NCBI GenBank assembly: GCA_037893225.1
Contig: JAZGUH010000375.1
Span: 1,674,001 to 1,738,000 of the forward strand
DNA length: 64,000 nt
DNA from: Hippasteria phrygiana
Lineage: Eukaryota > Echinodermata > Asteroidea > Valvatida > Goniasteridae
Reading direction: 5' to 3'
Under the pieces are notes generated by a model. That model saw nothing but the letters and a program-made list of their open reading frames with translations, did not search any database and had not been told where the DNA came from. The translations under genes were made by a program, and so were the position numbers. Each line of letters starts with the position of its first letter. Position 1 is the stretch's first letter. Positions 5,585-61,100 of this stretch are shown one piece after another.

Positions 5585-6769
5585 CTATTTGCTTCGTCGC
5601 AGGGCCTTCAAGAACCCGGACGGTTCCGGGATGCTCCCCCACTGCCGACGTATGATTCTGCCGAAGATCGCCCTGAAGTCTCGGTGCTTGGTCGCATATA
5701 TCATGGGGTTGACGCAGCTGTTGAACACCAGTACACTGTAAAAGTACGGTCGGACCTCCCTGTTACCCAAGAAAACAACCACTATGTAGGGGGTGAAGCA
5801 CAGCAGGAAGGCACATACGATGTAGAACATGTTCTTAGTGATCTCAGTCTGACGGCGGCTCAACTGATTTGGACGGGCTGCCTTCACGGTGCTGGAACGG
5901 GTAGCCGTCACGGTGCTGGAACGGGTAGCCCTCACGATGCTGGGACGGGCGGCCGTCACGGTACTGGGATTGGCTGCCGCTGTCATATGCATAGGCACAC
6001 CACCGCTATCAACAGAGGTGGATGCAGTTGTGGCTTCGCTTATCGTGGGCTCGCTCGGTTCCTCTCTGGAGCTGAGGATCATTTTGGTGTGGCGGGTGAG
6101 GTACCTCCAGATGAGCACATAGGAGACGATGATGGTGATCAAAAGGCCCGGGTAAAGTATCCCTCCTACAAGAACAGCGAAAAATGTAGACCGGGGATGG
6201 GAGGAGGAAGCCCCACATAGGTGGTACTTGGAGTCATAGGTCAGGTCACCTACCTTGATGATTGATGGTAGGACGGTGATGATGAGTGGGACCATCCAAG
6301 AGACTACCAACCCCACGGCAACCTTCTTTGGTGTGTACATTCTCCGGTAGCTGGCTGTCGGTCGCGTAATGAGCAGGAGTCGGTTCAGGCCGATGGACGC
6401 CAGGGTGATGATGCTACAACCGATGGATGAATTGAGTGCGACGGCAGCCGTACTGCATACCCACTCGGGAAACGGAAGGCCGTCCTTTGAGAGCAAGGCT
6501 ACGGCGTCCCACGGGATGGCGAGGCAGGTCAGCAGGTCTGCGACGCTCAGGTTCACCACCAGTGCGTTGGTGGCCGTGCGGACCTTCTTCGAGAGGAGAA
6601 CTGCCAAGATCACCAGCGTGTTCCCGAAGGTTCCAAGCAAGGAGACGAGCAGTAGCATGGTGGCCACGATGACTCTGTGGGTGTAATTGCTGAATTCAAA
6701 CGGCGGGCTCTCGGTGGAGTTGTACATAATTCCCTCATCAGTTAGCACTCTGCCGGTGTAGACTTCCAT
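5585..6769 (-). CDS. Rhodopsin-type (class A) GPCR, melatonin/moody-like, duplicate A
   Basis: A single-exon gene of 394 residues, starting at an ATG in context AAAATGGAAG. The N-terminus carries N-glycosylation sites (NST, NYT). Seven membrane segments can be placed: TM1 with GNTLVILAVL, TM2 with NLSVADLLTC (the conserved Asp), TM3 after the disulfide Cys in PEWVC, TM4 with VVSWMVPLIITVLP, TM5 with LYPGLLITIIVSYVLIW, TM6 with FLLCFTPY, and TM7 with NSCVNPMIYA (the NPxxY motif). The DRY triplet at the end of TM3 is replaced by LNR, and the CWxP of TM6 reads LCFTP, both seen in melatonin-like and moody-like invertebrate receptors. The third intracellular loop is long and contains tandem eight-residue repeats of the type STVTATRS, encoded by 24-bp DNA repeats near 5880-5960. 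A short basic tail follows. The ligand cannot be inferred. The reading frame is intact, so the gene is likely functional. Confidence 0.9.
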   Translation of the reverse strand: MEVYTGRVLTDEGIMYNSTESPPFEFSNYTHRVIVATMLLLVSLLGTFGNTLVILAVLLSKKVRTATNALVVNLSVADLLTCLAIPWDAVALLSKDGLPFPEWVCSTAAVALNSSIGCSIITLASIGLNRLLLITRPTASYRRMYTPKKVAVGLVVSWMVPLIITVLPSIIKVGDLTYDSKYHLCGASSSHPRSTFFAVLVGGILYPGLLITIIVSYVLIWRYLTRHTKMILSSREEPSEPTISEATTASTSVDSGGVPMHMTAAANPSTVTAARPSIVRATRSSTVTATRSSTVKAARPNQLSRRQTEITKNMFYIVCAFLLCFTPYIVVVFLGNREVRPYFYSVLVFNSCVNPMIYATKHRDFRAIFGRIIRRQWGSIPEPSGFLKALRRSK

Positions 6770-18916: not shown

Positions 18917-19133
18917 ATACCGGTACACTGTAAAAAGTTGGTCAAAATGGGTTGATATTTTTCCCAATGTTGGACAACATATCAACAACCCAAAATCTTG
19001 GGCAAATTCTTCCCAATAGTTGGTCCATTTTTACCTGAATTAACCAACAATGTGGTAAATTAATACCAATGTTGGCTGAATAACACTTGCCCAAATATGT
19101 TTTACCTAACGTTTTTACAGTGTATACAGTGTT
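18917..19133. mobile_element. MITE with CACTGTAAAAA ends
   Basis: The ends are 'acactgtaaaaa' and 'tttttacagtgt', and the interior has several short inverted words (ccaacattg, caatgttgg). It interrupts sequence that is continuous near 4775 in duplication copy 1, so the insertion followed the duplication or was lost there. Confidence 0.75.
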
Positions 19134-19212
19134 GTATAACTGGGGTGAAACTTCTGTGGGGGAGGTGGGTACCCGGAGGTACTTACATTTTATCAAGATT
19201 TCAAATGGGAGG

Positions 19213-19540
19213 GGGGCACCGGGGCACCGGGGCACCGGGGCACCGGGGCACCGGGGCACCGGGGCACCGGGGCACCGGGGCACCGGGGCACCGGGGCACC
19301 GGGGCACCGGGGCACCGGGGCACCGGGGCACCGGGGCACCGGGGCACCGGGGCACCGGGGCACCGGGGCACCGGGGCACCGGGGCACCGGGGCACCGGGG
19401 CACCGGGGCACCGGGGCACCGGGGCACCGGGGCACCGGGGCACCGGGGCACCGGGGCACCGGGGCACCGGGGCACCGGGGCACCGGGGCACCGGGGCACC
19501 GGGGCACCGGGGCACCGGGGCACCGGGGCACCGGGGCACA
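19213..19540 (+). repeat. Minisatellite (GGGGCACC) x 41
   Basis: Forty-one consecutive 8-bp units: forty are exactly GGGGCACC and the last is GGGGCACA. They are followed by GACGTCAGCT. Because 8 is not a multiple of 3, all six frames stay open and encode a repeating octapeptide, which explains the spurious long frames here. Perfect homogeneity points to recent expansion. The paralogous site in copy 1 has one unit. Confidence 0.97.
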
Positions 19541-19679
19541 GACGTCAGCTAGGGGCGTGCAACCTCCCCCCCCCCGTAGTTACGCCACTGTACCGGTAGC
19601 ATTATACATTATATTCCAATTGGTATTCGACTTTTGCACAAGCCGGTAGTGCTGGAGCCCGAGCCCCAAGATATGCTTT

Positions 19680-22178: not shown

Positions 22179-23348
22179 CTATTTGCTTCGTCGCAGGGCC
22201 TTCAAGAACCCGGACGGTTCCGGGATGCTCCCCCACTGCCGACGTACGATTCTGCCGAAGATCGCCCTGAAGTCTCGGTGCTTGGTCGCATAGATCATGG
22301 GGTTGACGCAGCTGTTGAACACCAGTGCGCCATAAATGTACGGACGGACCTCCGTGTTACCCAAGAAAATAAACACTACGTGGGGGGTGTAGCACAGCAG
22401 GAAGGCACATACGATGTAGAACATGTTCTTAGTGATCTCAGTCTGACGGCGACTCAACTGATTTGGACGGGCTGCCGTCACGGTGCTGAGACTGGTAGTA
22501 GCCCTCACGATGCTGGGACGGGCGGCCGTCACGGTACTGGGATTGGCTGCCGCTGTCGTCTGCATAGGCACACTACCGCTGCCAACATAGGTGGATGCAG
22601 TTGTAGCTTCGTTTGTCGTGTACTCGATCGGTTTCTCTCTGCAGCTGATGATAATTTTGGTGTGGCGGTTGAGGTACCTCCATATGAGCACATAGGAGAC
22701 GATGATGGTGATCAGAAGGCCCGGGTAAAGTATCCCTCCTGCAAGGACAGCGAAGAATGTAGACCGGGGGTAGACGGAGTAAGCCCCACATTGGTGGTAC
22801 GTGGGGTCATAGGTCAGGTCACTTACCTTGATGATTGATGGTAGGACGGTGATGATGAGTGGGACCATCCAAGAGACTACCAACCCCACGGCAACCTTCT
22901 TTGGTGTGTACATTCTCCGGTAGCTGGCTGTCGGTCGCGTAACGAGTAGCAGGCGGTTCAGGCCGATGGACGCCAGGGTGATGACGCTACAACCGACGGA
23001 TGAACTGAGTGCGACGGCAGCCGTATTGCACACCCACTCGGGAAACGGCAGGTCGTCCTTTGAGAGCAAGGCTACGGCGTCCCACGGGATGGCGAGGCAG
23101 GTCAGCAGGTCTGCGACGCTCAGGTTCACCACCAGTGCGTTGGTGGCCGTGCGGACCTTCTTCGAGATGAGAACTGCCAAGATCACCAGCGTGTTCCCGA
23201 AGATTCCAAGCAAGGAGACGAGCAGTAGCATGGTGGCCACGATGACTCTGTGGGTGTAATTGCTGAATTCAAACGGCTGATTCTCGCGATCGGTGGAGTT
23301 GTACATAATTCCCTCATCAGTTACCACTCTGCCGTTGTCGACTTCCAT
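22179..23348 (-). CDS. Rhodopsin-type (class A) GPCR, melatonin/moody-like, duplicate B
   Basis: Paralogue of the gene at 5585-6769, single exon, 389 residues from the ATG equivalent to the paralogue's start (context AAAATGGAAG). An in-frame upstream ATG at 23465 would add 39 residues, but that extension has no counterpart in the paralogue, so the downstream start is preferred. All landmarks are kept: GNTLVILAVL in TM1, NLSVADLLTC in TM2, Cys in PEWVC, LNR in place of DRY, LCYTP in TM6 and NPMIY in TM7. The C-terminal tail is the same. Differences cluster in the N-terminus, the extracellular face and the third intracellular loop, where this copy has fewer tandem repeat units (no equivalent of one TATRSSTV-type unit). 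The frame is open throughout, which suggests selection to keep both copies. Confidence 0.9.
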   Translation of the reverse strand: MEVDNGRVVTDEGIMYNSTDRENQPFEFSNYTHRVIVATMLLLVSLLGIFGNTLVILAVLISKKVRTATNALVVNLSVADLLTCLAIPWDAVALLSKDDLPFPEWVCNTAAVALSSSVGCSVITLASIGLNRLLLVTRPTASYRRMYTPKKVAVGLVVSWMVPLIITVLPSIIKVSDLTYDPTYHQCGAYSVYPRSTFFAVLAGGILYPGLLITIIVSYVLIWRYLNRHTKIIISCREKPIEYTTNEATTASTYVGSGSVPMQTTAAANPSTVTAARPSIVRATTSLSTVTAARPNQLSRRQTEITKNMFYIVCAFLLCYTPHVVFIFLGNTEVRPYIYGALVFNSCVNPMIYATKHRDFRAIFGRIVRRQWGSIPEPSGFLKALRRSK

Positions 23349-24099
23349 TTTAGCAGGGATGAAGTTTGTTGTGTACTGCACTGCAGTATTCTCGCCTTTG
23401 TGTTGCAGTTTTCGTTTAGAAAAGTTTCTATCTGTGTTTTTCAACTGTGTAGTAAAGGTGAACAATCAGTACTTGAGAAGAGTCGTAGCCTGCGGAGAAA
23501 ATTAGCCGTCTTTAGTATGCTTGCAGTTGCGGCCGAAAGTTTACATGCACCGCAGTCCTGCAAACGAGTTCATAATTCGTCCCAAAGCAGTGGAACAATT
23601 AATGATAATCCGCACATGAGAAAGGACCTTTGAAACAATTATATTTATATACATGTATTGAGAATTTGCAACAGAAAAATCGCAGGAAACGGAACAAATT
23701 GAAGGAACCATTCTTAGGAACAATATCCAAGCGTGTGAAACTTTCAAATTCAACTGTAGGTTACAGATGTATACGCAACATTACAAATTACCGATATCAA
23801 CGTTTGGAAAGTTCTAGATTTACCCAAAACCATCACGTGCTAACTACTGACCCCTACGTGACCTTTGATCCAAATATGTATATACACCTGAATGGAGTGT
23901 AGGTCAAGAATCCTTCAAAGTTTGGCCAAATTGAGCTGTGCACCCCCAACCTGGAGCTCTGTTCTTTCGGTCAATCTTGCCGAAAATTAGCGCCGAAGTA
24001 TAGAAGAATGTCTTTGTTTCTATTGTTCTACAATGTAACAGGTAATGACCGATGTGTGCCCTATGATCCTATATAATGGACACTCGTAGCCATATCGGA

Positions 24100-29109: not shown

Positions 29110-30070
29110 AAGTATGCTGATCGTGTGTCGAGCTGCCATTTATGGCGTGATTCATTAATTCATGCATGAATGAATGTGTTGAATAGCACTGTGTTTGTAA
29201 AGCACCGAGAGTCTCGCATTCCACCCGGAAGTGCGCAGAAGGGGCTAATGTGAAATTTGTCTATGTACAGTATGTAAAGGGACGTAACACGCGTTGAAAC
29301 CAAAAACAAATTACATTCAAGAAACAAAAGTAATGTGTCAAATACCGAATTTTCATTTGTCGTGAGTCATTTTGTCGTATCAATTTTGCCACAACTGATG
29401 TTACGTTGTGTTACATTTTCAGATGTTTATAATACAAATTCCGGTTTTATAACCGAGTTAAATTTTCAACGCTGGGTAACTGGTCCATTGGGTACCCGTA
29501 ACTGGTCAGATATCTAAGTTTTCAGGGGATTTCTAGCATGCTGCCCTCTGTATATCAAAGTGAACTATTTTGACCTTTGACATGATCTACCACTTCACTT
29601 TTCTCGGAAGAATTGACAAGTTTTACAAAAAAATGTAAATGCTCGGGATTAATTTTGAAAGTAATAAAACTGGGCTCTCTCGCGAACTTTGTTTAATTAA
29701 TTCACTCTGAATGACATTTGAAAAAAGTTAATATCTTTCCTGTGCCATTTTGTATCGTATTATGTCTATTTTGATTCTGTGATCATGTTGGACCCCTTTC
29801 CCCATAGGTGGGCAATTAAGTGGTCCACGCAAATGGACATTTTGTAATTAGAGTTAATTAGATTATTCAAATGGCATTATCTCCATCAACACTTCCCCTT
29901 TAAAGATGATTGTATGTGCCATCTGACCATAGCAATTGTGAAAACTACAAGTCACAAAGCATACTTTTATTCCACAAAAAGGCTTAGATGGACTATTGTT
30001 CTATGCAAAACGATTATTTATTGTTTGATTATTTTTGTGAAAATTTGTATTTTTGTGTGAAATTAATAAA
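29110..30070. other. DNA downstream of the broken transporter copy
   Basis: I looked for the last transporter exon (the counterpart of 50963-51081) on the minus strand here and did not find it. Otherwise AT-rich, with no recognised gene. Confidence 0.4.
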
Positions 30071-30074
30071 TTAC

Positions 30075-30903
30075 CAGGTAGGAAGCCCAGGGTAAACCGT
30101 AATACCGCGGTATGAATCCCCATCCATCCGTAGGCTCCGGCCAACAAGTCCACTCCAAGCAACTGCTTGGCTAGGACGTCATTCAAGCAGCTGGTGAATC
30201 CCTCCGCGATTAGGATAAAAAATGCTGATGTCATGATAGCCCAATAAGAGGCCAGCCAGGGAGTTGCGCAGTACAAAGCACCACTCACACCGAGAGCCAT
30301 ACACATCAGAGCCCAATGCGAAATCAACCCTCGCTCTACGATTAATCCTTGAGCAACTTTCCCCGCCAAACCTCCAAAACCCGCAACCGCTACAAACGTC
30401 GCAGCATCCTCCAGAGAGAATCCTTGCGATATGGCAGTTGACACAAAATAGATATTCCACATGTCGAAGACATACTTGCCATTGCAGTAGACAATGGCTG
30501 TAGTCCAGTAACGGATATTGCAAAGTAGTTTCAAATCTAAATCGTCCACGATGCACTTTCTGAGGGTGCAAAGCAGATTGGTTGTAGGCATACATGTAGC
30601 CGATGACGGCTTACCCCCACGGATTTCCTGATGTCCGTTGATACAAGGTTGGATGTTCGAGCGATCTGACGTCCGCATAAGGGCACCACACACCGTCATG
30701 AATGAAAAGATAGCTCCCATGAGCAACATAGTTCCTCTCCACCCGTACGTAGTCAGGAAAAGCTGAACGAGAGGCGCACATACTATCAGCCCAATGGACG
30801 ATCCAGTCCGAGCAATGCCGATTGCTGTTGCGTGGTTCTTTTCAAAGCAACGGCTTTTCAACCGCAACTCTGGAAAGAATACGCGATATCCCCAATGCAG
30901 GAC
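30075..30903 (-). pseudogene. SLC16-like transporter paralogue, exon 3 (frameshifted)
   Basis: Counterpart of exon 3 of the gene at 38630-51081. The acceptor 'ttgttgttcccag' and the donor CCTG/GTAATT are in the same places and phase. The family motif is present as ATAIGIARTGSSIGL. Near 30845-30860 this exon has four extra bases relative to the paralogue ('gttgaaaagccg' region), which shift the frame and create a stop about 20 residues into the exon. Downstream of that the frame is open. Total length is 829 bp against 813 bp; the other 12 extra bases are in frame. With only exons 2 and 3 found, this is probably a truncated duplicate pseudogene, unless the 4-bp difference is an assembly error. 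Confidence 0.75.
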
Positions 30904-31077
30904 CTGGGAACAACAAAAAAGTGAACATGCAACGGTGAAAAATATAAATGACAGGAACTCCATACATGCTAGCTTTCACTTGGGCAAAGAACGATGACGT
31001 ATTGATATAGAGTACTGAAATGTGCTCTAACCTGTTTCTGGCGATTTGTGCCACTGCTCATGCACTAGCGGGGAACG

Positions 31078-38828: not shown

Positions 38829-41800
38829 GTAAGCACACACTAGGAGTAAACTTCATGGAGCCGTTAGAGGTAGTATACAACATTTGCAAACATAAAAAAA
38901 CCTTACTTGACTGTAAGTAAATAATAGTCTCAATTAAGCATCCTGTGAAATGGCACCTGGTGTATTGTCATTTTCAAGAAAAGTGAAAAAAAAGTTTCCC
39001 AACATCTATGCACACAAAACTTTAAACAGGTCAGTTATACAGTATTTGCTATAAAATACTAACCCTTGAATCCATTCATTTCTGAAAACTACAGCAAAAG
39101 CAAATGTTATATGCTAACTTTAAGCACAAACATTTGTTTACCATGGATTGACCACATTTTTATGTGATGTATATTGTTTGATACCCAAGTGTTTTTTTAG
39201 CATGAAAATCACATGGAGTTTTGGCTGGTGACCTGTTTTTAAATAAGCAAGACTTTTTATGGTTAGCACTTTTTGTCTGTTGAGCAGCTTCATAAAATTA
39301 GCCCCGGTGTCATATGAATATCCGACTCCCATGATTTTCCGACTCTTGGCCACGATGCATTGCAACAAAATTGTGCTTTTATAATGTAGTAATTAAACCA
39401 CGATGGGTGGTAACTGGGGGTATTGAAGGCCTGAGCCGTCAACGGGTTCCGGGAGTTATCCCAGGGGAAAGGAGGACGAAAAGACCATGGAGACAACACA
39501 CGGTTGTGGATGCCACTGTTTGTATTATTGTTCCTCTCCAGTAAATATACCCCTGCAAAATTACACATTGACATGTCATATGTAACCAGAATACACAGCA
39601 ATTAAACTGAAAAGTCCTGTAGTTTGTTGAATAATAATAATTAAATTGTACAAAAATGTACACACACTTAATGACCAAAGCGTCGTGTGCCCGGCAGAAG
39701 GGCATAAAGACGAAACATGGGTCAAAAGGTCTAATTCAGGTTTTGGGGGTAATCGAAAGAGTATTGGAGTATCTTCATTTTGATATACATTTTGTATCAA
39801 GAGGCTACGTCATTCTGACGTAATTAACAAAATGAAAAGGACATAAGGGGATTTTGCATTTTTTGTTCCCGGCAAAAGGGCATTAGCGTGTAATACCAAT
39901 GTAACAATACATGATAAAAGTGCGTTCACCTCTGCACTTCAGTGGGGCATAAGCGCGCTTAGAGCAAATTTTGTTCCCGGCAAAAGGGCATTAGCATTTC
40001 ACATGCCGCTTAAGCGCACGTTTATGCCAGAATGACTTCCCGGCAAAAGGGCATTAGCATAAAGATGTAAATAACTTTAAAATTAAGCAATATTTTTATT
40101 TAAAAATGCACAGCATTATTGGAAATATCAATAATTTTTATCTGACAAAAAAATCAACCGTTTGCGAGTTTTAATTTAGAAATGCCAACACATAAACCTT
40201 AAAGTTGATTTTCCCGGAATGTGTAATTACGCTTCAATGCGTTCTATATGCCCTTCTGCCGGGCACACCACGAAAGATGAGAAAACAGAAATGTACGGTG
40301 TGCCAATCATGTACATGTACATTGTAATTCTATATGTGATGATCTAACTCACCCAACACTTGATCTGTCTAAGTTGCTCTAATGCATGCACCCATATGGC
40401 AATACAGCTAATCTCGGATTAGGCTAACCTCAGGGCATGAAAAAGACGATTCTTAATACGATTCTAAATAAAATATAGTCAGAATCGGTTGATAAAATAT
40501 CCACCAGGCCGGCACAACATAGAGTTGTCTTCGAGAACGGGCCCACCATAACACTGTACATTGATGACAGCGGCCATGGCCGCGCAACACAATGCATAAT
40601 AGTGTGACTACACGTAATGCAGCAATACGTGGACAATGCACAATACACAATACACATACATGACGCTCCATATGATTATCGATCGACAGAAACAACCCAA
40701 AACTATGCAACATAAACACTATTTCTCCGGCCCCTCTCATAAGTTAAATGATCATCAAAGCCCAAGTAGTAGGGGAGGGCCGATCCTAGACATATCTAAA
40801 ACCCCCCTACCCCTATACGACAAAAATTTCAAAAACCTATAAAAATCGAAAACTGAGAAAAAGCTTTCTCTCTCTCCTCTCTCGCTCAGCCCAAAAAAAA
40901 TGATAATATTTTTAATCGAGTCGTATAGTTATCCAGCAAAATTCGCAAAAGGATACTGACAAAAAATAATCCCCAAATTTCCCCATAAAACCCCGAACCA
41001 TATAATCAAATTTCCAGAGTCAATTCCCCGAATAATATAACCTAACTTCTCAAGCCACATAATTCTCAGAAATCTCAAATCCCGAGTCAATTTTCAAGTC
41101 ACATAATCTCAAGTCATTTAATCAAATTCAGAAATTCCAAAAGTCCCAAAATCCCGAGCTGTACAACCTCTCGAAGCCAAAAAATGTCGCAGAGGTTGGT
41201 CGACTTTACCCTATATACTATCGTCGTATATCTATACTAGTTGTGTAAATTACAACAGATTTTTAAAAAATTGCACCATAAAACACAGTGTGGGAAGGAC
41301 GTGTATGCAGGTATAGCTAGCTGATGAAGGTCACCTATCCTTTGTCCTATTTACTCATCACAGTTTTGTAAAGGTGTTAGAATAATACGAAGCCACTATA
41401 CATACAAATCAATGAACCTTGATGCTTTTGAGTTTACAGAATATACAGTACGAGTTATGCTATTTACTATGGCGATTGCAACAAGAATTCCACTGTATCT
41501 GCGAATCAGAATTATATGACAGGCCTATGCTGAACATAGCTCAGACTGCTTTTGTTGTGTTGTTCTATTGTAAAGATAAAAGTAGTTTCGATCAATGTCT
41601 CGATGAAAATGACGCGGTACCTTTGGAAGAAAGATCTAGAATATAAAGATTCTAAGAGACGTGCCTTATAGTAAATTGTTGATAAAAATTGATCCTCCAG
41701 TTTGCTGGAAGCTAGTTAACAAGCTGTAAATTTGCTGGAGTTTGCTATAAATTTGCTGTAATTTGCTATAAATGTGCTGTAAGTTACTACGCAACTAGCG

Positions 41801-44800
41801 TATAACTAGCTGTAATTTGCTGTAAGTTACTACGCAACTAGCGTATAGCTAGCTGTTTTTTGCTGTATAGCTAGCTGATAGATGTAAAATTATCTAGGTA
41901 TTATATAATATGATAGAATATATAGACGTCTTGCTAAAACTCGTAATAGCCGTCAACTTGTGTTTAATTTCTTACGAGTATATGACATGTAAAATTAAGA
42001 TAAAAAATACATGCTATTTATAAATGAACAACTCGATAGAATCTCTAAGCACATTGTCTCAACAACCGATGCAAGTAGAAACCCCTAGTGGAGTTCCAGA
42101 ACACAAAAATAGACTTTTAGGAGTAGTTGCTTCCGGTGATTCGAAGAAATATCTCGGTAAAGAATACTCCGTTAATGAAGTCGAAAATTTAGACTCTGTA
42201 AAACAAGAGAAACTATACAAAAACTACGAAGCTAAACTAGGTAAAGAAATGATTGTAAGTTTGGGTAGTTGCATGCTTAGTCTTTACGCAAAAGCTTTAG
42301 AGGTGACTTTACCACTGGCTTCACCGTTTGGTTATAAACTTTGTTTAGACTCTGAAAAATCTTTTACCAACGACTTGGAAAATGATCCAGTTATTTCTAG
42401 CAGTATGGCTAGTTTACTTTGCGAAGTGTACTACAACTACGGACTTTATCTATCTCCTTTGGTAGCTATGTTGATTACGACTAAACATTTGAAAATAGAC
42501 ACGAATTATAATAATAGTAGTTTTATTATATAAGATGGATCTAGAAACAAAAGCGGACCAAGTAGTAGAGTAGACACAGCCAACGCAGGAGACGAAGGAG
42601 ATGACGCAGAGGGTAACAAAACCTCCGGCTAAAAAAGGAGTAAAAAAACCTAAAAGAGTAGAGCAGGGTAAAAAACTAGCCGAAAGAAACAAAAAGATGA
42701 AGGAACAAATAATAATGATGCAAAGTCTGTAGACGATAAAACACCCAACCAAACACAAACCGTCACGATAGACTGTATTCCTAGCTGGGGGTATGTGGTA
42801 GTCGGCTTGGCTGTTTTAGGACTCGGATATCTCGTACTTAGTAAAAAGAATGTTGTAGTTAACGATACTTTAGGTAGTTTACCTATACCCCCACCAACAC
42901 CAGAGCCACCAAAAGAGGAAATAGAAGACATCTTAGAAATGGACTAATAAACGATTAAAAAACATTTTAAACATTTTATTAAAAATAAGATGTTGTCGTT
43001 GTATAAATAAAATGGATACTAAGAACGTTGCAAATACTCTTTATCACGGTGCTGTGTTGAGTTTTTTGACTGTAGGTTATACCATGTTGAGTAAAAAACT
43101 TTTGAAAATGAAATCTGCCGATCTCGGAAAATTAGATGTAGAAGATACCGTCAAAATTACCGCTACGGTAGGTGGTGCCCTAGCTACGCAGTCTTGGTTA
43201 GTGAGTCAAGGTATACTTCCTCAAAATGTAGTAAATACACCCTATTCCTATTAATCAATTTTCTAAAATGGCTTATATACAAGAAACATCGTTTATCGAA
43301 GATCGTGGTGATATACTTACTCAATTTACAAGAAGGTTGGTAGAAGAAAAAGTAGACAATATTTATGAAGATATTTATGATAATACTGGATATAAACCAG
43401 ATGTTGTAGATCCGACCTATTTTAACGTTGACAAACTCAGTGGGCTTTATGTAAAATTTGAAAATAAATTGATTAGATTAACGTATAGAAAAATCCTGAA
43501 AATGTTTTAAATTTAGAAACTATTCGAGGTAAAACTAACGTAAAATTTATCAGACATGATCTTGATTTGAGCGATTACGAACCTCGTAAACTGAGTAGTG
43601 AAGCTCAACGAAAAATAAGTCAGATACAACCCGAAAATATCGAGTTGAGTGAACTTCCAAAAGCAGCCGATGATGTTAGCGATATCTTGGAAGAAGTAGT
43701 AGAGACCCAAACGCAAACTGAAAGATTAAACTACAGAGAGCTTGTTGGTTTAGACAAAGCGCTACAAACGCTAAAAGGTAATTTGGAATTGAATTTAGCT
43801 GAACTTAGTAAGCTAGACGATGAAATTTATCAAACAAAAGTGCAATTAGATGAATTAGGGAGCGGCGAAGACAACGAGATGGAGATACAAGAATTAAGAG
43901 ATAGATTAAAAGAGCTAAATAATGAAAGATCCGCTAGAATGACGGTGGTGCTAGAAAATGAACGAGGACTCAAAAACCAAATCGCTAGAATCAAAGAAAC
44001 GATTAATAAAATATTACGAGACGATACCTCGTTAGCGGAAAAGATTAGAACTCTGTTTCGAGAACAAGGCGTAACTATCATTAGTATACTAGCCGCTTTT
44101 AGTTTAGCTACAAGTACGATCGTGAGTTCGATAGTAGCAGGTGTAAGAGGTGTAGCGACTCCAATGCCAACTCCAGTTCCTCCAGCGCCTAAACCCGGCG
44201 GAGACTTGAAATACTGGGTTAAGAATCATTTTAAAAATTTAGCCAATTTACTAAAAAAGCTCGGGGGTAAGCTGTTGGTCGCCTTGCCGGGTATTTTGGG
44301 GAGTATCGCTAGTTGGTTGTTTAATTTATTAAGTAAGAGTGTCGGTTGGTTGGCCGAACATGTGTGGACTCTATTGATTGGAGTCGCGACTTTGATTTTC
44401 GTATACTTGCAAAAACACGTTTAATTTTTAATAAATAGATTTTAATCGTTTGTTTAAATAAAATGACTAATATATATATCCTAAATTACCAGATGTACCC
44501 GATGTAACGGACAATACACGCGTCTATAGATTAAATAAAATCGAGCAAGTACAAACCGAGATAACGACTGAGAGAGACAAGCGAGAACAGTTGTATAAAC
44601 AATATAACAAAATTATTACTTGATTATCAAACGCGGAGACTGCAGCGGAATGTTTTGGAGCCGCATCAGGCGCTATTGGCATCGCTGGAATTGTCGGTGT
44701 CATTACTGTACCCATCGGTGTAGCGTTAGAAGGTATAGCTATAGGCTGCGTCGGTGTGAGTTTAGTCTTGAAATACTTTAGCAAAAGGTTTAGGGGTAAA

Positions 44801-47800
44801 GCCAAGAAACACGATGAGATTAGAGTGTTGGCTGAAACCAAATTGATTACGATAAATGAACTAGTGTCTCAAGCTATAGACGATTGTGATATCAGCCATG
44901 AAGAATTTACTCTGATCACTAATGAGCTAACAAAGTTTAACGGAATGAAAGAAGCTATTTGAACTCAAACAAAGGCGAGGGAAGAATCTGATAGAAATCA
45001 AAAAGAAATTGATGATGAGGTTCAAAAGCAAGTGATCGAGAGAATGGAGAAAGAAAAAAAAGACCTTATCACAAAACTTTCTGCTTCAAACTAGAAGTAA
45101 TTAAAGAATACGATAGTAATTTACATAATGATAATTTACATAATGATAATTTACCACCTAATTGTAAGAGTATACAGTCTAGGCCTAGCGCTCCGTACGA
45201 AGAATAGTAGGTAGTTATACGAGACAAATAAAATAAGCCCTCAACTCTACTAGAGAGTTGAGGGTTCATTTTTTGTTTGTTAGACTCAGTTAGAAGCACT
45301 TATCAAATATTTGTATGTACGGCATCATACCATCATCAATAATAGCTTGATCGACCTTGTATCTGACTAAAGCGCCGTGAGAGGTTTCTCTGTATGAACC
45401 CCAGCATATATCAGTAACTCTAACTACTAATGTTATATAACCCACTCGATCGATATAATCCGAAAGATCGGTAATTTCTTGCACAGGTGGCCCCCTTTCG
45501 TATAGTTTTCGTATCATTTTTACATCGTTTCTAATTTGTATTGTGTTTAATAAAATACACATATTTTGATCAGTGTCTTTTGCTTTTGAAAATAGAGGTC
45601 TAACGACATAATCAACTCTATTTTCCTCGGTTAAGCTATCGTAAAAAGAATTAAAGGTTGATATAGACAAATTTGACGAGTTATCTTGGATAAATTTATA
45701 TACGACTTTGTCAAATTTTTCGAGACAACTAATAAGATATTTTTCATTGTCTAGTGTAGGCGCCATATTATAAAATAATTGATATCGATCATCAGAAGCT
45801 TATTCCTTGTTAATAATCTTGTTTATTCCGAAATAAAAGTTTCTCGGAAAATAAAACAAGAGGTTATATTTTTCCTTTTTTATGTTTATACAATATGTTT
45901 GAATAAACCCAGTTTGTCAAATACGTTAGCGGTTTTGTTGTAGGTTCTTTTATTATAACCTTACTCGGATCAAAGTCACCATAAATGATATGTTCTGTAC
46001 TTGCGTATTTTTCGTGGTTAAAAACTACGACGTAATTTTTGTTGCTGACCATTTTATAATAGATGATTATTTTATTTTATTATTTTATAAAAAATTTCTT
46101 TCTTTTTTTACGCGATTTTTTTTTGGACCCGAAATTTTGGGGATTCCCCTTTTTTACTTTTGCGAATTTTGCTGGATAACTATGGGCTCCGTGCGCCGTC
46201 GAATGAGGGCGCTGTCCTCATAGCAACCGCACTTCCATGGGGAGTACGTCGCTGGTATTACGCACTGCGCTCCTCGTTCATTTGATACTCGTATACCAGT
46301 GGGATTGCTTTGTCTGTTCGCTGACTCTCGATAATTGCTTTTTCAATAAGAATATCACAGCGGGAACCAGACACTTAAATTGAAGTCAGGTAAGATGGCG
46401 TCGATATGAGCCCCCAACTCGCCTTTTCTTTCCGCTGAGGGGGTAGTTGTGCACGGAGCTCATACGACTCGATTAACAAATTGTCATTCTTTTTTTGGAC
46501 AGAGCGAGAGAGAAGAGAGAGAGAGAGCTTTTTCTCAGTTTTCGATTTTTATAGGTTTTTGAAATTGTTGTCGTATAGGAGGGGTAGGTTTTTTTTAGAT
46601 ATGTCTAGGATCGGCCCTCCCCTACTACTGCCCACCTACATGACAAGTATTGAATAACAGAAGACCCCCAAACCCACATATTTATCAACTCATTGGATTT
46701 AGGGACAACAAGCGAGTAAAATTACCCCTCACCGTGAAGGCCGTTTGCTCCCGTTTGCGGTGACGCTGCAAGAGGCCGAGTCACTGTTTACTACACATAA
46801 CATCTTTACAAATCTAACAAAATCGTGGAGCCCTCGCTATATAATAGAACAGTTTATGCTAGCAGTGATTAATTCCCATCATAACTTAATATGAGGGAAT
46901 TAGATAGAAATTAATACATGGAAAAGGCTATGTAACGGACGATTTTCTAGGGCCTAACTTCTAAAGCGCACGTGCACACAGTCAGCTCATACGTTGTGAG
47001 GCTCTGCACAGAGACAGGGCACACTTAAAGGGGCCGCCTCCCTCAACTTTAAAGGAACCGTCTGTTACTATAAACCCATATCCCCACAATAATGAATACT
47101 AAAAAAACAATTGCCAGTGACATAACCTTTAACCTCATTCCAACCCTAACCCTAACCCTAACCCTAACCCCAACCCCAACCCTATTTCTCACCCTAATCG
47201 TCACTCTCGCCCTTACCTAATGTTTCTCATTGTTTGCGTTTTTGTATACGGGGCGTGCTGATCATGCGCAGTATAACCAACAAGTCAGATTTTCTTAGGC
47301 CATCCTTGAATGGAATCAACTTCACCCCGACGTCCTCTCTGCTCCTGTTAAGATTTTCAAATTGGCCCTGGACAAGTCACAACTTTAACATCCAAGATTT
47401 GATGTCTAAAATCCAACTCAGAATTTAGTTGCCGCACACCTGACCCTGACCAACGAAAACTGTAACAAATTGCCCGTGAAATTAACGGTCGAAAGGCGTG
47501 CAGCAAGTTGCCACCCGTCTACCGTATTCTTTTTTTTTTACGGTCGAACCGTATTTAAATTTACCGATAAACCGTATTTTTTTCCGTGAAAAGTGTGTAA
47601 ATACTGCCATTTTTACGGGGACCGTTTGTTTTTTAAGAAAAACGGAAAAGGTAGTACTGGAAGCTAGGATGCCATTAATTAACTGCAAATTAACAGAAAT
47701 GAATGAAGTGGGAACCAGACTCAACGGAAGTAACTTATTCTACATTACTATGAGAGTGTACAAATACTACAATAACCTATAGCTAAACACTACAAACTGA

Positions 47801-50800
47801 ATGATCAGCTTATCCCACCATAATAAAGTCATGCATGGTTTTCCCATGAACAATGTCAATATTTGAATACGAAAGGAGATGTAATGAGAATCTTCACCTA
47901 TGTTTGTAAAAAAAAAATCAAAATTCTATTATTGAATTATGGTCAAGAAAGTGTATTTTTGGACAAAACACTGCAATTTAATCGCGTCTATCGCGTTGTA
48001 TTAGATGGTGGACAGCACATGCAGCAGTATGGATTTCGCGCGAATGCGAGTGGATGGGTTAAAGAAATTTTGGACTAATCGGGGAATACCTTGTGCGGGA
48101 AAGAAGATAGAGGAGTTGATAGATTTAGCGGAGAAAGGGTGTAAGAAGTTCGGTCGATGCATTAGCGATACCCACTTCCGGTTTTGCGATGTCGACTTTT
48201 TCCCATGATGCACTGCGTAATTTGGCCTTGCCGCTGGCGGCGCACCGAGTTGTGAATCGACCGAATTGCCTGATCTCGGTAGAACTATGCACTTATGAAT
48301 TTTCTCCCACCCTTCTCCAGGCTGCCCACCCCTAATGTTAGGATTGCCATTTTGTAAGAGACTAAAAAAAAATACTCCCCGAGGCACGACTCTCCCGTAC
48401 AAAAGTAAGGACCAAAGTCCTCTCGGAACTTCCAAAAATTTCAGACAAATCAACATAACCGCGCAAAGTCCCACAGCGGTGTGTGAAGAGTGTAGTCAAC
48501 TTCAAAAACAGCAATATGTCAATTGGGTGATTTAGTTATACTGCCCTGTCTGTCCAGATAATTGCGCAGCAGGGGCGGATCTAGCCTTTCATTTGGGGAG
48601 GGGTTGTACCATTCACCCACCAAACGTGGAACGTGCCAAAGGCACGTTCTTACTAGGGGGTCCGGGTGAATTCCCCGGAAAATTTTGAAATCCGGGGGCT
48701 TTCTCCTGCAATCTAAGGCATCTCGGGCGCCGTTTGAATCTGCATAATTTGTGGTTTTTAAAGAAGAATTTGCTCATATCACTATGAACATCTAACAAAA
48801 GAAAACCCACGCAGTCCTTTGTTTGTAACAAAGGTCTGCGTGGGTTTTCTTTTGTTAGATGTTCATAGTGTATTGGGCTGAAAAATGGCTTATCACAACT
48901 TTGCTCAGCAGCCCAAGAGGGGGGTTGCAACCCCCACCCCCCCCACCCCCCCCCCCCCCCCAGATCCGCCCTTGCGCAGTGTATTCACGGCATCTGTGCA
49001 ACGGTTTCTCCCGATGGCAGGTGTGTCGTCGCGTTTCCTTGGAAGACGACTGGGTACAGGTGCTGCCATCACTGCCTGTGGTGTGATGATAACTGCGGCT
49101 GCCATCGCTGGGTCGTTTGCCACCAACGAGATTCAGTTAGCTTTGATCTTCACGCTGCTAGCAGGTAGGTTTTCATGCAAGAACCCGGAACCCGGAGTTA
49201 TTCGTTTCACCGTAAAGCCTCTTCAGAGATTTATACGGCGCCGATCTTTTCTCAAGAGAAGAAAATCACAGGCCATTATAAATAATCTGTGAACACTTTT
49301 GGGAATTCGGAAAACCTTATAGTCTTCATATAATTTCTCTATATGTTTCGGTAGACTAAATTCTATAATTGTAAATGTTTCACATTGTCAAATGTGAATA
49401 GTTTCCTCGCAATGGTGGTGTAGGGGCCATTTCTTAAGTGATGATGCGCTTTCGCCTATTCAATATAGTCCATGACAGAACGCATGCAAGAGACCCCATG
49501 TTTTGGATTGCGTAGGCCCTATATACTGTACTTCATCTGTGTAATTTCGTCTTCAGTGCAAACAATAACCGACTTGTGGGGTCCCACACCCCACAAGGAC
49601 ATCCACTCAAGAGGTTGTCAACACACCTAGATAGGCCGGGGAACGTTGTTCTAACCGATAATTGATTCTTCTAACAATCGATTATAAATAAATAAATAAA
49701 TAAATGAATAACGAAGTGCGGCCTGAATATTTATTCCGATTATTCAAGACATTCACAACAACCGTCAAGTTTTCTTTTTCAGGTTCGGCTTTTGGAGTAT
49801 CAAGCGTGCTTTCAAAAGAGGCTGTTGGTCGCTACTTCGACAGGAACTACGCCACAGCCACCGGCATCACACGCACAGGCTCTGCCATTGGGCTGCTGGG
49901 GCTTCCGCCGCTCACACAGCTATTTCTTGACACGTACGGTTGGAGAGGAACCCTGATGCTTATTGGGGCAATCTCGGCCCACCTTGTCGTATGCGGTACC
50001 CTCATGATGACGGCAGAAAGACGCCATAAGGCCACCTACCAGAAGCTTCTCGCAGATGAACTGAACCCAGCGCACACAACTAGTCCATCCTCCTGTTGTT
50101 CGGCAAGTTGGACGAGCGTTCTCAAGAACTTAGACATGGGGATACTACACAATGCCCGTTACTGGTCGTTGGCTTTCATCTATTGCAATGCAAGGTTTGC
50201 CAATGAAATGTGGATTATTTACTTTGTGTCGTTAGCACAGTCTAAAGGATTTTCCTTGGAGGATGCGGCTACTTTTGTTTCTGTCGCTGGTGTTGGGGGA
50301 TTGGCAGCGGGGCTACTTCAAGGTTTCATCGTGGATAACGGATTTATCCCGTGTTGGTTGCTGGTGAGTGTCAGCTTGGCTATAAGCGCGGGGACGTACT
50401 GCGCAACTCCATGGCTGAATTCTTATGGCTTACTGATGACGTCAGCGTGCCTGATTATAATAGTCGACGGTGTTTTATCCCCTCTGAAGGATGTTCTTAC
50501 GAAGCAGGTGCTAGGAGTTGAGTTGTTGGCAGGTGCCTTCGGATGGTTTGGGCTCAAATCTGCGATATTGGGGTTTACTCTTGGATTTTTTCCTGGTAGG
50601 TATACACTTCCCTCATCATTTATCTACTAGAACTTGAATTTTAAAGTTGGTAATTTTCCTGCTTTTAATCTGCATAATAGTTAATAGTATTCCAAAAGAA
50701 AACAAGGCAGCTAGTTACAATTTGCTTAGTTTAAAGAAAAACCCAGTGAGGATACCCACTTGATCAACCTCAGTCCACTTTGGTGCCACAGCTGGATTCG

Positions 50801-58100: not shown

Positions 58101-61100
58101 GCGGATACCAGTGACGTACTCCCCACGGAAGTGCGGTTGCTATGTGGACAGCGCCCTCTTTTGTTGGCGCACGGAGCCCATACAGCCGTGTTAGTCATAA
58201 AAATAGATGTAACTTGGACAGGACCAGCTTAAAACAAAAATGTATCTGTTTTAATGTCAGTCATTAATGTGCTATCTGTCAAAGTTAGAACATTCTTATC
58301 AAGACAGAACCAAAACAGTCTACAACAGACATAAACCGATGGCGTACACGAAAATAAGATGAACCGGCAATAATCACTGCACAAAAATCCCATCTCAAGT
58401 GGAAGAGCACTGGTGACCGAACTCTTGTACTGGATGGAGCAGGGCCGAGCGCAGGATTTTTGTGGGGGTTGGCACGTATCCAAATTTTCTAGACCAAATT
58501 TTTAAAATATAAAATATTGTAAAACCTTCATCGATTTATAGAAAAAAATGGACCTTTTGGGAAATGTGTAGGGGCCCACCCCTGGCCTGTACTTGAGATG
58601 ACACACTGGGGAAATTTGTTAATATAGAACTTCTCAAGTTTCCAGTGAGCTCCTGGGCATGAAATCGGGCAAGAAGATACAGAGATACGACCGAGAATGA
58701 TTGTCTCTTCCTTACCAGGGTCCCACAGCTCCCAGCCCCTCATCAACGTGCTCCTGTCGATTCTACCGATGAAGAGAACACCGAAGAAGACTGCCTTGAT
58801 GATTCGCATCAGACACGACACCAACCCGACGATGGCGTTCAGAAAGAGGGTGATGTATACCGTCAAATGGAACAGCCGTCTGGTGGAGGCAGTTCGATTG
58901 AAAGAGACAACATACGGAATTAGGAGCGCAAGTCCGCTCTCTGAAACGATGTCTGATTTAGAGAAGTCAGTAAAACCTGGTACTTGTACTTGAGAAACTT
59001 AAGGTACTTTCCTATAATTACAATGAAAAATTCTTAATTTTTCCGATTTTTTTATATTTTATTCTGAACACACATTTACATTTTCACTATATCAACTCCA
59101 TCTTTGAGGCTGATATTTGTAAGAAATGGGGAATAAGGACAACAAAAAACACTAATCATCAAAAAATACCATTTTCAAAAGCGTTTTTCTCGCATATCGT
59201 AATTTCGAATAAACATGGCATTTTTGAACAAATATATTTTCACTGTTTTTCAATGGATTTTCTTTATTTTTGTAAGCAGAAGCATTGTTGTAATGACATT
59301 CCCAGAAAATACCATTTTTAGAAGCAATACTCTTAATATCTATTTAATTAGTCAAATGTCTTTTTAACAGTTGGTAATATTGACAATCATAGAATAGCAT
59401 TGGATTGCTGCTTTATCAGGCTTTAATTTAATATACCATTGGCCATGGTAGGTGCTTTATTTGCCAAGCTACACTTTAAAAACAATATACTCGTCGTTAC
59501 GAGCTTGTTAATTAATTTGTCTAATTATATAGCCGTATACCCAAATAAGGTAAAAGTTTTAAAGTGGTTTGCAAATGACAATCAGTAAAAAATATGGTAA
59601 AAATAAAAATAATTGTGATTTCTTTTTCAAAAAAATTACCCTAATTGTAGGAACCTTAAGACAACGCAATGAGGACATTTTCTCAGTTGAACCATCTTCA
59701 AGTGTGCCTTAAGTACTGGATGTTAGTTTCCTCTAGTTCAGAGTGCTTTATTTCGTGACTTTTGAGCTGAAACACCTTTTTAAATTTTTACACTGCAAAA
59801 AACTGTGGTATTTATTTAACACCGTGTGGTTAATTAATCTATATTGAACAGGTGGCTAAATATAGATACGACACGGTGGTAATTATACATCCCAGTTTAC
59901 CCCAGTTCACGCACGCAGACTCGTTGAAATGCTTTGTAATTCGTAATATCAAAACACATTAGAAAACGTTAAATTAACTTTCTGCCAGTACATTGTCGTC
60001 ATTTTTAATTTGATTTTTGAGGTTTTTTTGTATGGAGGGTCGGGGAATGGTTTGGATGGGGTGTATCGAAACAGATGCACCCAAGTGTGTAAACACATTA
60101 AATCGGGGACCTCCTATATTGTCCTCCTAGGACCCTCATTGGTTTTGCACACGGTTTTCAAACGGGGACCTTTCTCAACAAACTACGATCGGGGTGTTAA
60201 AAATATTCACTTGTTTACACTTTTGCTAACGCCATGTTGAGGTCCTGATTGTTTTTATGCAAGACGAAGTGAACCAAACTTAAACTTCAACCAAACAGCA
60301 ACTGATGCGAGAAAAGCACGCCCCATACAAGGCTTTGACACCGCAATCACTCGTCGGAGTGACACACCCCTTTAGTGATAGTGTTTTATTTCACTTTTGT
60401 CTTTCTCCTATAGGCAGCCCAGATTTTTGTTCCGTCCATTGTTTCTTGGTCTTCTGTTTGTCCGGTTGTCTTTTGTTTCCTTGTGTTTTCGTTGTTTGCG
60501 TTTATCTGCTGGTTTTTCATGGTTTGTTGTGCGTTTTTGTTTTGGTTTGTAGTGCGTTTTGTTGTGCGTTTTGTTGTGCGTTTTTGTAGTGCGTTTTTTT
60601 CTTTATCGTGTTATATTTTCTTTATTGTGTTATATTTTCTGTGCAATTATTTCGTAATCTGTGCAATTCCTTGTCCTATATTACTTATTTTACTTATTAA
60701 TTGTGTGATTGTGTATTTTTGTGTGAATTGCCTGAAAGTATTATAATTTTCAAAACATGGCAGTCGAGATTGAATTTCTTTTGCTAAGATTTTATTTAAC
60801 TGGCATGATCCTGATTTTTATTCAGCAGGGCATTCAGTGTCTGATTTTTTGACGGCAGTGGCCCTACCTGTTGTCGAGGCTCAGGTGCACTTTTTCTCTC
60901 TTCTTTTCCTTTTCTTTCTGCAAGAAAGCTGAGTGAGCAAAGGCGACCTGGAGATAGTAGAATACGAATCCCATAACGAAAGTCAGCCTGTAGGGAAAAA
61001 AATAGGACAAAAAGTTACAAACTTATCTGGAAAACTTTTTTAAATGCTGACTTGAAGCTCATTACATTAATTTATGCAGCTGAAATTTTTTATCACATAT

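Follow-up and report, generated by a model that had tools for sequence, protein, structure and literature searches.

The stretch of DNA analysed here, a window of 64,000 nucleotides from the sea star Hippasteria phrygiana (contig C375, positions 1674001-1738000), carries at 40765-46629 a virus-like element of 5.9 kb. With a probability of about 0.93, we regard it as a dead element, present in a single copy and derived by internal deletion from a long Polinton/Maverick of which the same genome contains many copies. As in a non-autonomous deletion derivative, the ends of the element and its flanking gene order are common to the long elements, and the interior is gone at a junction. The element is an ordinary genomic fossil and not a new kind of small virus.

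The Deletion Junction and the Long Relatives

The deletion junction is located at 41537|41538, where left-end sequence is bluntly joined, with no shared bases evident, to the last part of a gene encoding an A32-like packaging ATPase. By the frame of the long copy on contig C2, about the last 60 of the 215 ATPase codons are left in the window. On the left side of 41538 the ATPase gene goes on in the long copies compared, and the window runs into left-end sequence. When other copies are aligned to the window, the match begins at 41538 or 41539 for five pieces out of 17 (L013, L014, L017, L021, L025) and, in further sets, for three out of seven (L029, L031, L033) and one out of two (L036); that of L010 begins at 41560. 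From the other side, the C155 copy shares the left-end sequence of the window up to exactly 41537 and then departs, the parental sequences diverging abruptly. When the genome (944 Mb) was searched with 41440-41640 and the best 40 of 718 candidates were scored, the junction was spanned by one place, the window itself, while 38 places matched on the ATPase side only and one on the left side only; several copies sharing this junction at different sites were not found among these 40.

In the C2 copy (pieces L036 and L037), a polymerase-like open reading frame (ORF), a leftward integrase gene, a gene for a protein resembling the major capsid protein (MCP) and the A32-like ATPase gene are followed by the gene cluster of the window. 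Because this cluster follows the ATPase in the long copies and the junction resides inside the ATPase gene, one deletion can explain all the missing core genes. The C2 integrase is recognised by Pfam (rve, E=8.3e-9), and the ATPase, at 22.7 bits, falls just short of the cut-off of 22.8 (Pox_A32, E=7.6e-5). The polymerase-like ORF, of 708 aa, has only a weak Endonuclease_7 match in Pfam and contains a YTDTDS motif, which we take to be that of a protein-primed DNA polymerase B. The MCP-like protein has 1326 homologues; among the 120 that were listed, the name major capsid protein appears once and PF16903 once, and in the best homologue (P0010) Pfam recognises nothing at E 0.001. Viral contigs searched with the MCP-like protein contained no relative and phage records none, and solved structures gave nothing meaningful for either the polymerase-like or the MCP-like protein. 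No protease or penton match was obtained with Pfam for 30 ORFs of other copies.

The core genes were also sought by tblastn with the C2 proteins in those pieces of the other copies that were fetched. Matches to polymerase, integrase, MCP and ATPase are all present in C83 and C158, and C845 contains polymerase, MCP and ATPase plus a 23-residue integrase match. The pieces of C932 and C62 match integrase, MCP and ATPase, with no polymerase match, and those of C229 match polymerase, MCP and ATPase, with no integrase match. In the 9.4-kb C331 copy integrase, MCP and ATPase are matched and polymerase is not, a deletion that differs from that of the window. The order is rearranged in C278, where polymerase and integrase are matched and MCP in part. 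Large insertions or rearrangements occur in several copies. In the window element the same queries detected only the C-terminus of the ATPase, with no match to polymerase, integrase or MCP. The earlier note on this DNA, made from the sequence alone, had proposed that polymerase, integrase, ATPase and capsid genes were lost and an accessory cluster kept. This holds in outline, since long copies share the ends and the cluster and the junction is inside the ATPase gene, and needs one correction: a C-terminal ATPase remnant, which that note did not name, stays in the element.

Ends and Insertion Site

The element opens with AGTAGTAGGG and closes with CCCTACTACT. Its terminal inverted repeats do begin with AG, as the earlier note had it, the start being AGTAGT, and an inverted-repeat scan resolves them into one arm of 86 nt with 90% complementarity, another of 50 nt with 92%, and further arms towards the inside. 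An insert of 278 bp (46184-46461) interrupts the repeat on the right; neither end of the C229 copy (L012, L013) has it. The ends of this insert are short inverted sequences (GGGCTCCGTGC...), with a 14-base motif of which a second occurrence is found elsewhere in the window, on its minus strand (58166-58179); the insert is probably a small nested DNA transposon.

The GCCCA reported at both edges is indeed a 5-bp target site duplication that flanks the element on both sides. The left flank (40464-40764) belongs to a dispersed repeat, of which the genome has 14 further near-full-length copies, four of them on contig C881 and five on C299. In all three of these paralogous copies that were examined the element is absent and the insertion point is read through uninterrupted, and the window flanks, joined with a single GCCCA, align unbroken to the best of them at 97% over 199 bp. 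The other two are on the same contig with an identical score and may therefore be one duplicated copy. The empty copies and the unbroken alignment fix the ends of the element and the duplication well, and insertion of the element is shown directly by these empty paralogous sites.

A chimera of two subfamilies was considered as well, since the left repeat of the window agrees with C1006 at 96% and with the right repeat of the same element at 91%. A like pattern is seen at the left end of C155 (92% with C1006, 90% with the right end of C155), and with other elements sharing it the data cannot separate a chimera from ordinary divergence.

Gene Content and Decay

Rather than the eight closely packed genes first read in the element, there are remnants of about six. 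The ORFs at 43268 and 43567 look like a single gene (D/E) with a frameshift near 43500, judged by the C229 copy (the D region of the C2 copy is a different sequence), and gene F has two in-frame stops. What had been taken for two unrecognised leftward genes is one, gene G, which is open for 295 codons from stop to stop in C559 and is split by a frameshift near 45878 in the window. Gene A, with 169 aa in the window, corresponds to stop-to-stop frames of at least 200 codons in many other copies, and in the C83 copy genes A and B form one open frame.

These genes are widespread in the genome. All 150 candidates scored with gene A, the best of 884, were matches, the window included, and a search of 5.8 billion proteins gave one relative with 62% identity. 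Gene G has 43 matches from 56 candidates, some being fragments of one copy. Comparison of coordinates places gene G convergent with gene A, about 1.5 to 5.3 kb apart, on C309, C323, C412 and C460, as in the window, so that the right-hand half of the window element represents one arrangement within the family. In other copies gene G is placed differently, e.g., in the C559 element close to its left end. In C1006, C517 and C845 (L014, L016, L021) the right end is found about 33 bases past the equivalent of window position 45208, without gene G; these three copies may form a subfamily that has one right-end deletion in common.

None of the eight window ORFs has a Pfam match above the curated cut-off or a PHROGs match below E 0.019, and viral contigs searched with gene A contained no relative. 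The idea of a membrane gene cluster is retained in part only: in a simple hydropathy scan strong hydrophobic segments are present in the 43567 ORF, and in gene F of a relative, and in no other ORF of the window. The hairpin at 45230-45275 folds in six of seven copies tried, including that of the window, the C229 piece folding poorly, and may be a shared transcription end signal. By eye, the hairpin of the C2 copy has changes on both sides of the stem.

The Polinton Family in the Genome

A search with the end of the element had been set beforehand as the test of whether any other copy has these termini, and the proposal withstands it: the left 236 bp has 42 matches in the genome (74 candidates, 40 scored), two of which are the window's own two ends. 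Exact 5-bp duplications are found in five of the six two-ended elements whose ends were read, namely those of C155 (1.7 kb, CACTG), the window (5.9 kb, GCCCA), C331 (9.4 kb, CGACC), C229 (17.8 kb, CAAGT) and C559 (23.2 kb, ACATC), and four of five bases agree in the sixth, C845 (28.7 kb, CACCT/CACCC). C278, of about 10 kb, is outside this count, its exact ends being unread. With AGTAGT//ACTACT taken as the element ends, a 6-bp reading of the duplication is impossible in the window, C155 and C559, and in C331 and C229 the sixth base agrees only when a terminal base of the element is counted in. For the strong left-end matches on C1006, C822, C517, C62, C208 and C309 no partner end was detected. 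The 1.7-kb element (L011, C155:1643612-1645298) consists mostly of two inverted Polinton ends within its own duplication.

Origin of the Deletion and Alternative Explanations

In the simplest course of events, a long Polinton would have inserted at this site and made the GCCCA duplication, presumably through an integrase of the retroviral type. A single internal deletion, some 8 kb or longer on the assumption of a parent like the C83 copy, would have taken the polymerase, integrase and capsid genes and most of the ATPase gene. This deletion most simply followed insertion, by non-homologous repair in the host, and the remainder would have been decaying since. Several points weigh against this account. 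Genes A and C and the E part remain open frames, so that decay is incomplete. Pfam did not call the polymerase of the long copies, and its label therefore rests on motifs and gene order. The junction search, scored on its best 40 candidates, may miss a copy with the same junction, though a full-length match should rank first.

Were the deletion the older event, a short genome would have arisen during replication of a long Polinton and then been integrated, and perhaps packaged, with the integrase, polymerase and capsid of a long copy. Such a genome would be the counterpart of a defective interfering genome, and the elements of 1.7 kb and 9.4 kb would belong with it. The intact ends and duplication of the window element agree with this order, as do the other short elements with related ends and their own duplications (C155, C331). 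We nevertheless consider it unlikely, as the junction of the window is unique among the candidates scored, C155 and C331 are built differently from the window element, and the partnerless ends at the six contigs named above are such as random decay would give. A trans-mobilised defective genome is a possible, if less likely, origin. Deletion after insertion is simpler and needs no extra assumption, and the ends of the element could at most be usable in trans, with no activity known.

Far less probable is a separate small lineage, derived from Polintons and mobile on its own with the gene set of the window, the other possibility raised in the earlier note. The compact gene blocks and intact ends of the window element would suit such a lineage, but the junction recurs nowhere else among the 40 candidates scored, an ATPase remnant is located at it, several genes are broken, and the two other short two-ended copies that were read differ in structure. 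The chance that the inverted repeats enclose, by accident, a cluster of non-viral host genes is close to nil. The absence of Pfam and PHROGs matches for the window ORFs at those cut-offs would be in keeping with it; it was rejected because the window genes follow capsid and ATPase genes in the long copies, gene A is found genome-wide in all of the best 150 candidates, and empty paralogous sites exist. A deletion derivative of a long Polinton is the reading that we retain.

Other Features of the Window

The element had been placed in a transporter intron. In a motif scan no exon was found that would place it inside one gene, the nearest transporter ORFs (Pfam MFS_1) being at 30001-30963 on the minus strand and 49704-50630 on the plus strand. 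Elsewhere in the window, two long similar ORFs on the minus strand (5585-6769 and 22179-23465) match Pfam 7tm_1, the rhodopsin-type receptor family, and look by eye like a local duplication, and a tandem repeat at 18942-19599 can be translated in several frames into a long GAPGHR/PRCPGAPV repeat. The parts of the element are listed in Table 1.

Table 1. Features of the element and its edges, in window positions
Feature	Positions	Strand	Basis
Left GCCCA target site duplication copy	40760..40764		Flank reading; empty paralogous site
Left terminal inverted repeat, AGTAGT start	40765..40951	+	Inverted arms I1-I5; genomic matches
Left subterminal sequence; apparent N-terminal fragment of leftmost gene from 41413	40952..41537	+	Matches ends of other copies; stops at deletion junction
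A32-like packaging ATPase gene, C-terminal remnant, frameshifted near 41645	41538..41720	+	Comparison with long copies; tblastn
Gene A, 169-aa ORF	42024..42533	+	ORF list; genome matches
Gene B remnant, frame broken near 42725	42532..42947	+	Open-frame comparison with other copies
Gene C, 80-aa ORF	43012..43254	+	ORF list; other copies
Gene D/E, probably one gene, frameshift near 43500; C-terminal half with hydrophobic segments	43268..44424	+	Frame comparison; hydropathy
Gene F remnant, 203 codons, two in-frame stops	44477..45085	+	Frame comparison
Hairpin between two converging gene blocks, also in other copies	45230..45275		Inverted repeat I13; folding
Gene G, one leftward gene, frameshift near 45878	45290..46052	-	Frame comparison; genome matches
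Right terminal inverted repeat, inner part	46157..46183	-	Inverted arm I5; comparison with other copies
Insert of 278 bp, short inverted ends, interrupting right terminal repeat	46184..46461		C229 ends uninterrupted; end motif also at 58166-58179
Right terminal inverted repeat, outer part, ACTACT end	46462..46629	-	Inverted repeats; end reading
Right GCCCA target site duplication copy	46630..46634		Flank reading; empty paralogous site

Comparison with Known Systems

The element is mainly a calibration case, in which a search of the whole genome turned an apparent compact new virus-like element into a deletion copy. Useful by-products of the analysis are an animal Polinton family with duplications reading 5 bp, a cluster of uncharacterised genes that follows the packaging ATPase, and short copies bounded by terminal inverted repeats, in which trans-mobilisation could be examined with related genomes. 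The titles and abstract openings returned by a literature search make no mention of a trans-mobilised short Polinton, a source that does not establish absence in print.

Internally deleted, non-autonomous DNA transposons, such as derivatives resembling miniature inverted-repeat transposable elements, form a class in which the ends are kept and the inside is lost. This is also the state of the window element, and the 1.7-kb C155 element is mostly end sequence. In contrast to that class, the 5.9-kb form gives no sign of multiplication among the best 40 of the 718 candidates for its junction.

Closer still are the Polintons/Mavericks themselves (polintoviruses, adintoviruses). According to PMC8097293, (AGT)2//(ACT)2 is the commonest end motif of vertebrate Mavericks, and the window element has the ends AGTAGT//ACTACT and terminal repeats within the length range given there. 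Its long relatives contain polymerase-like, integrase, ATPase and major capsid genes, whereas the window copy is without all tested core genes except the tail of the ATPase. The duplication also differs, being 5 bp in this family and 6 bp in the intact vertebrate Mavericks of the same source (PMC8097293). Stops, frameshifts and insertions are reported to have eroded 96% of vertebrate Maverick loci (PMC8097293), and Polinton-like elements of less than 10 kb were set aside as incomplete (PMC4028283). The window copy is of the same kind as these degraded vertebrate fossils (PMC8097293, PMC4028283), and is set apart from them in that both of its ends and its duplication are still recognisable and the loss of its core resembles one clean deletion.

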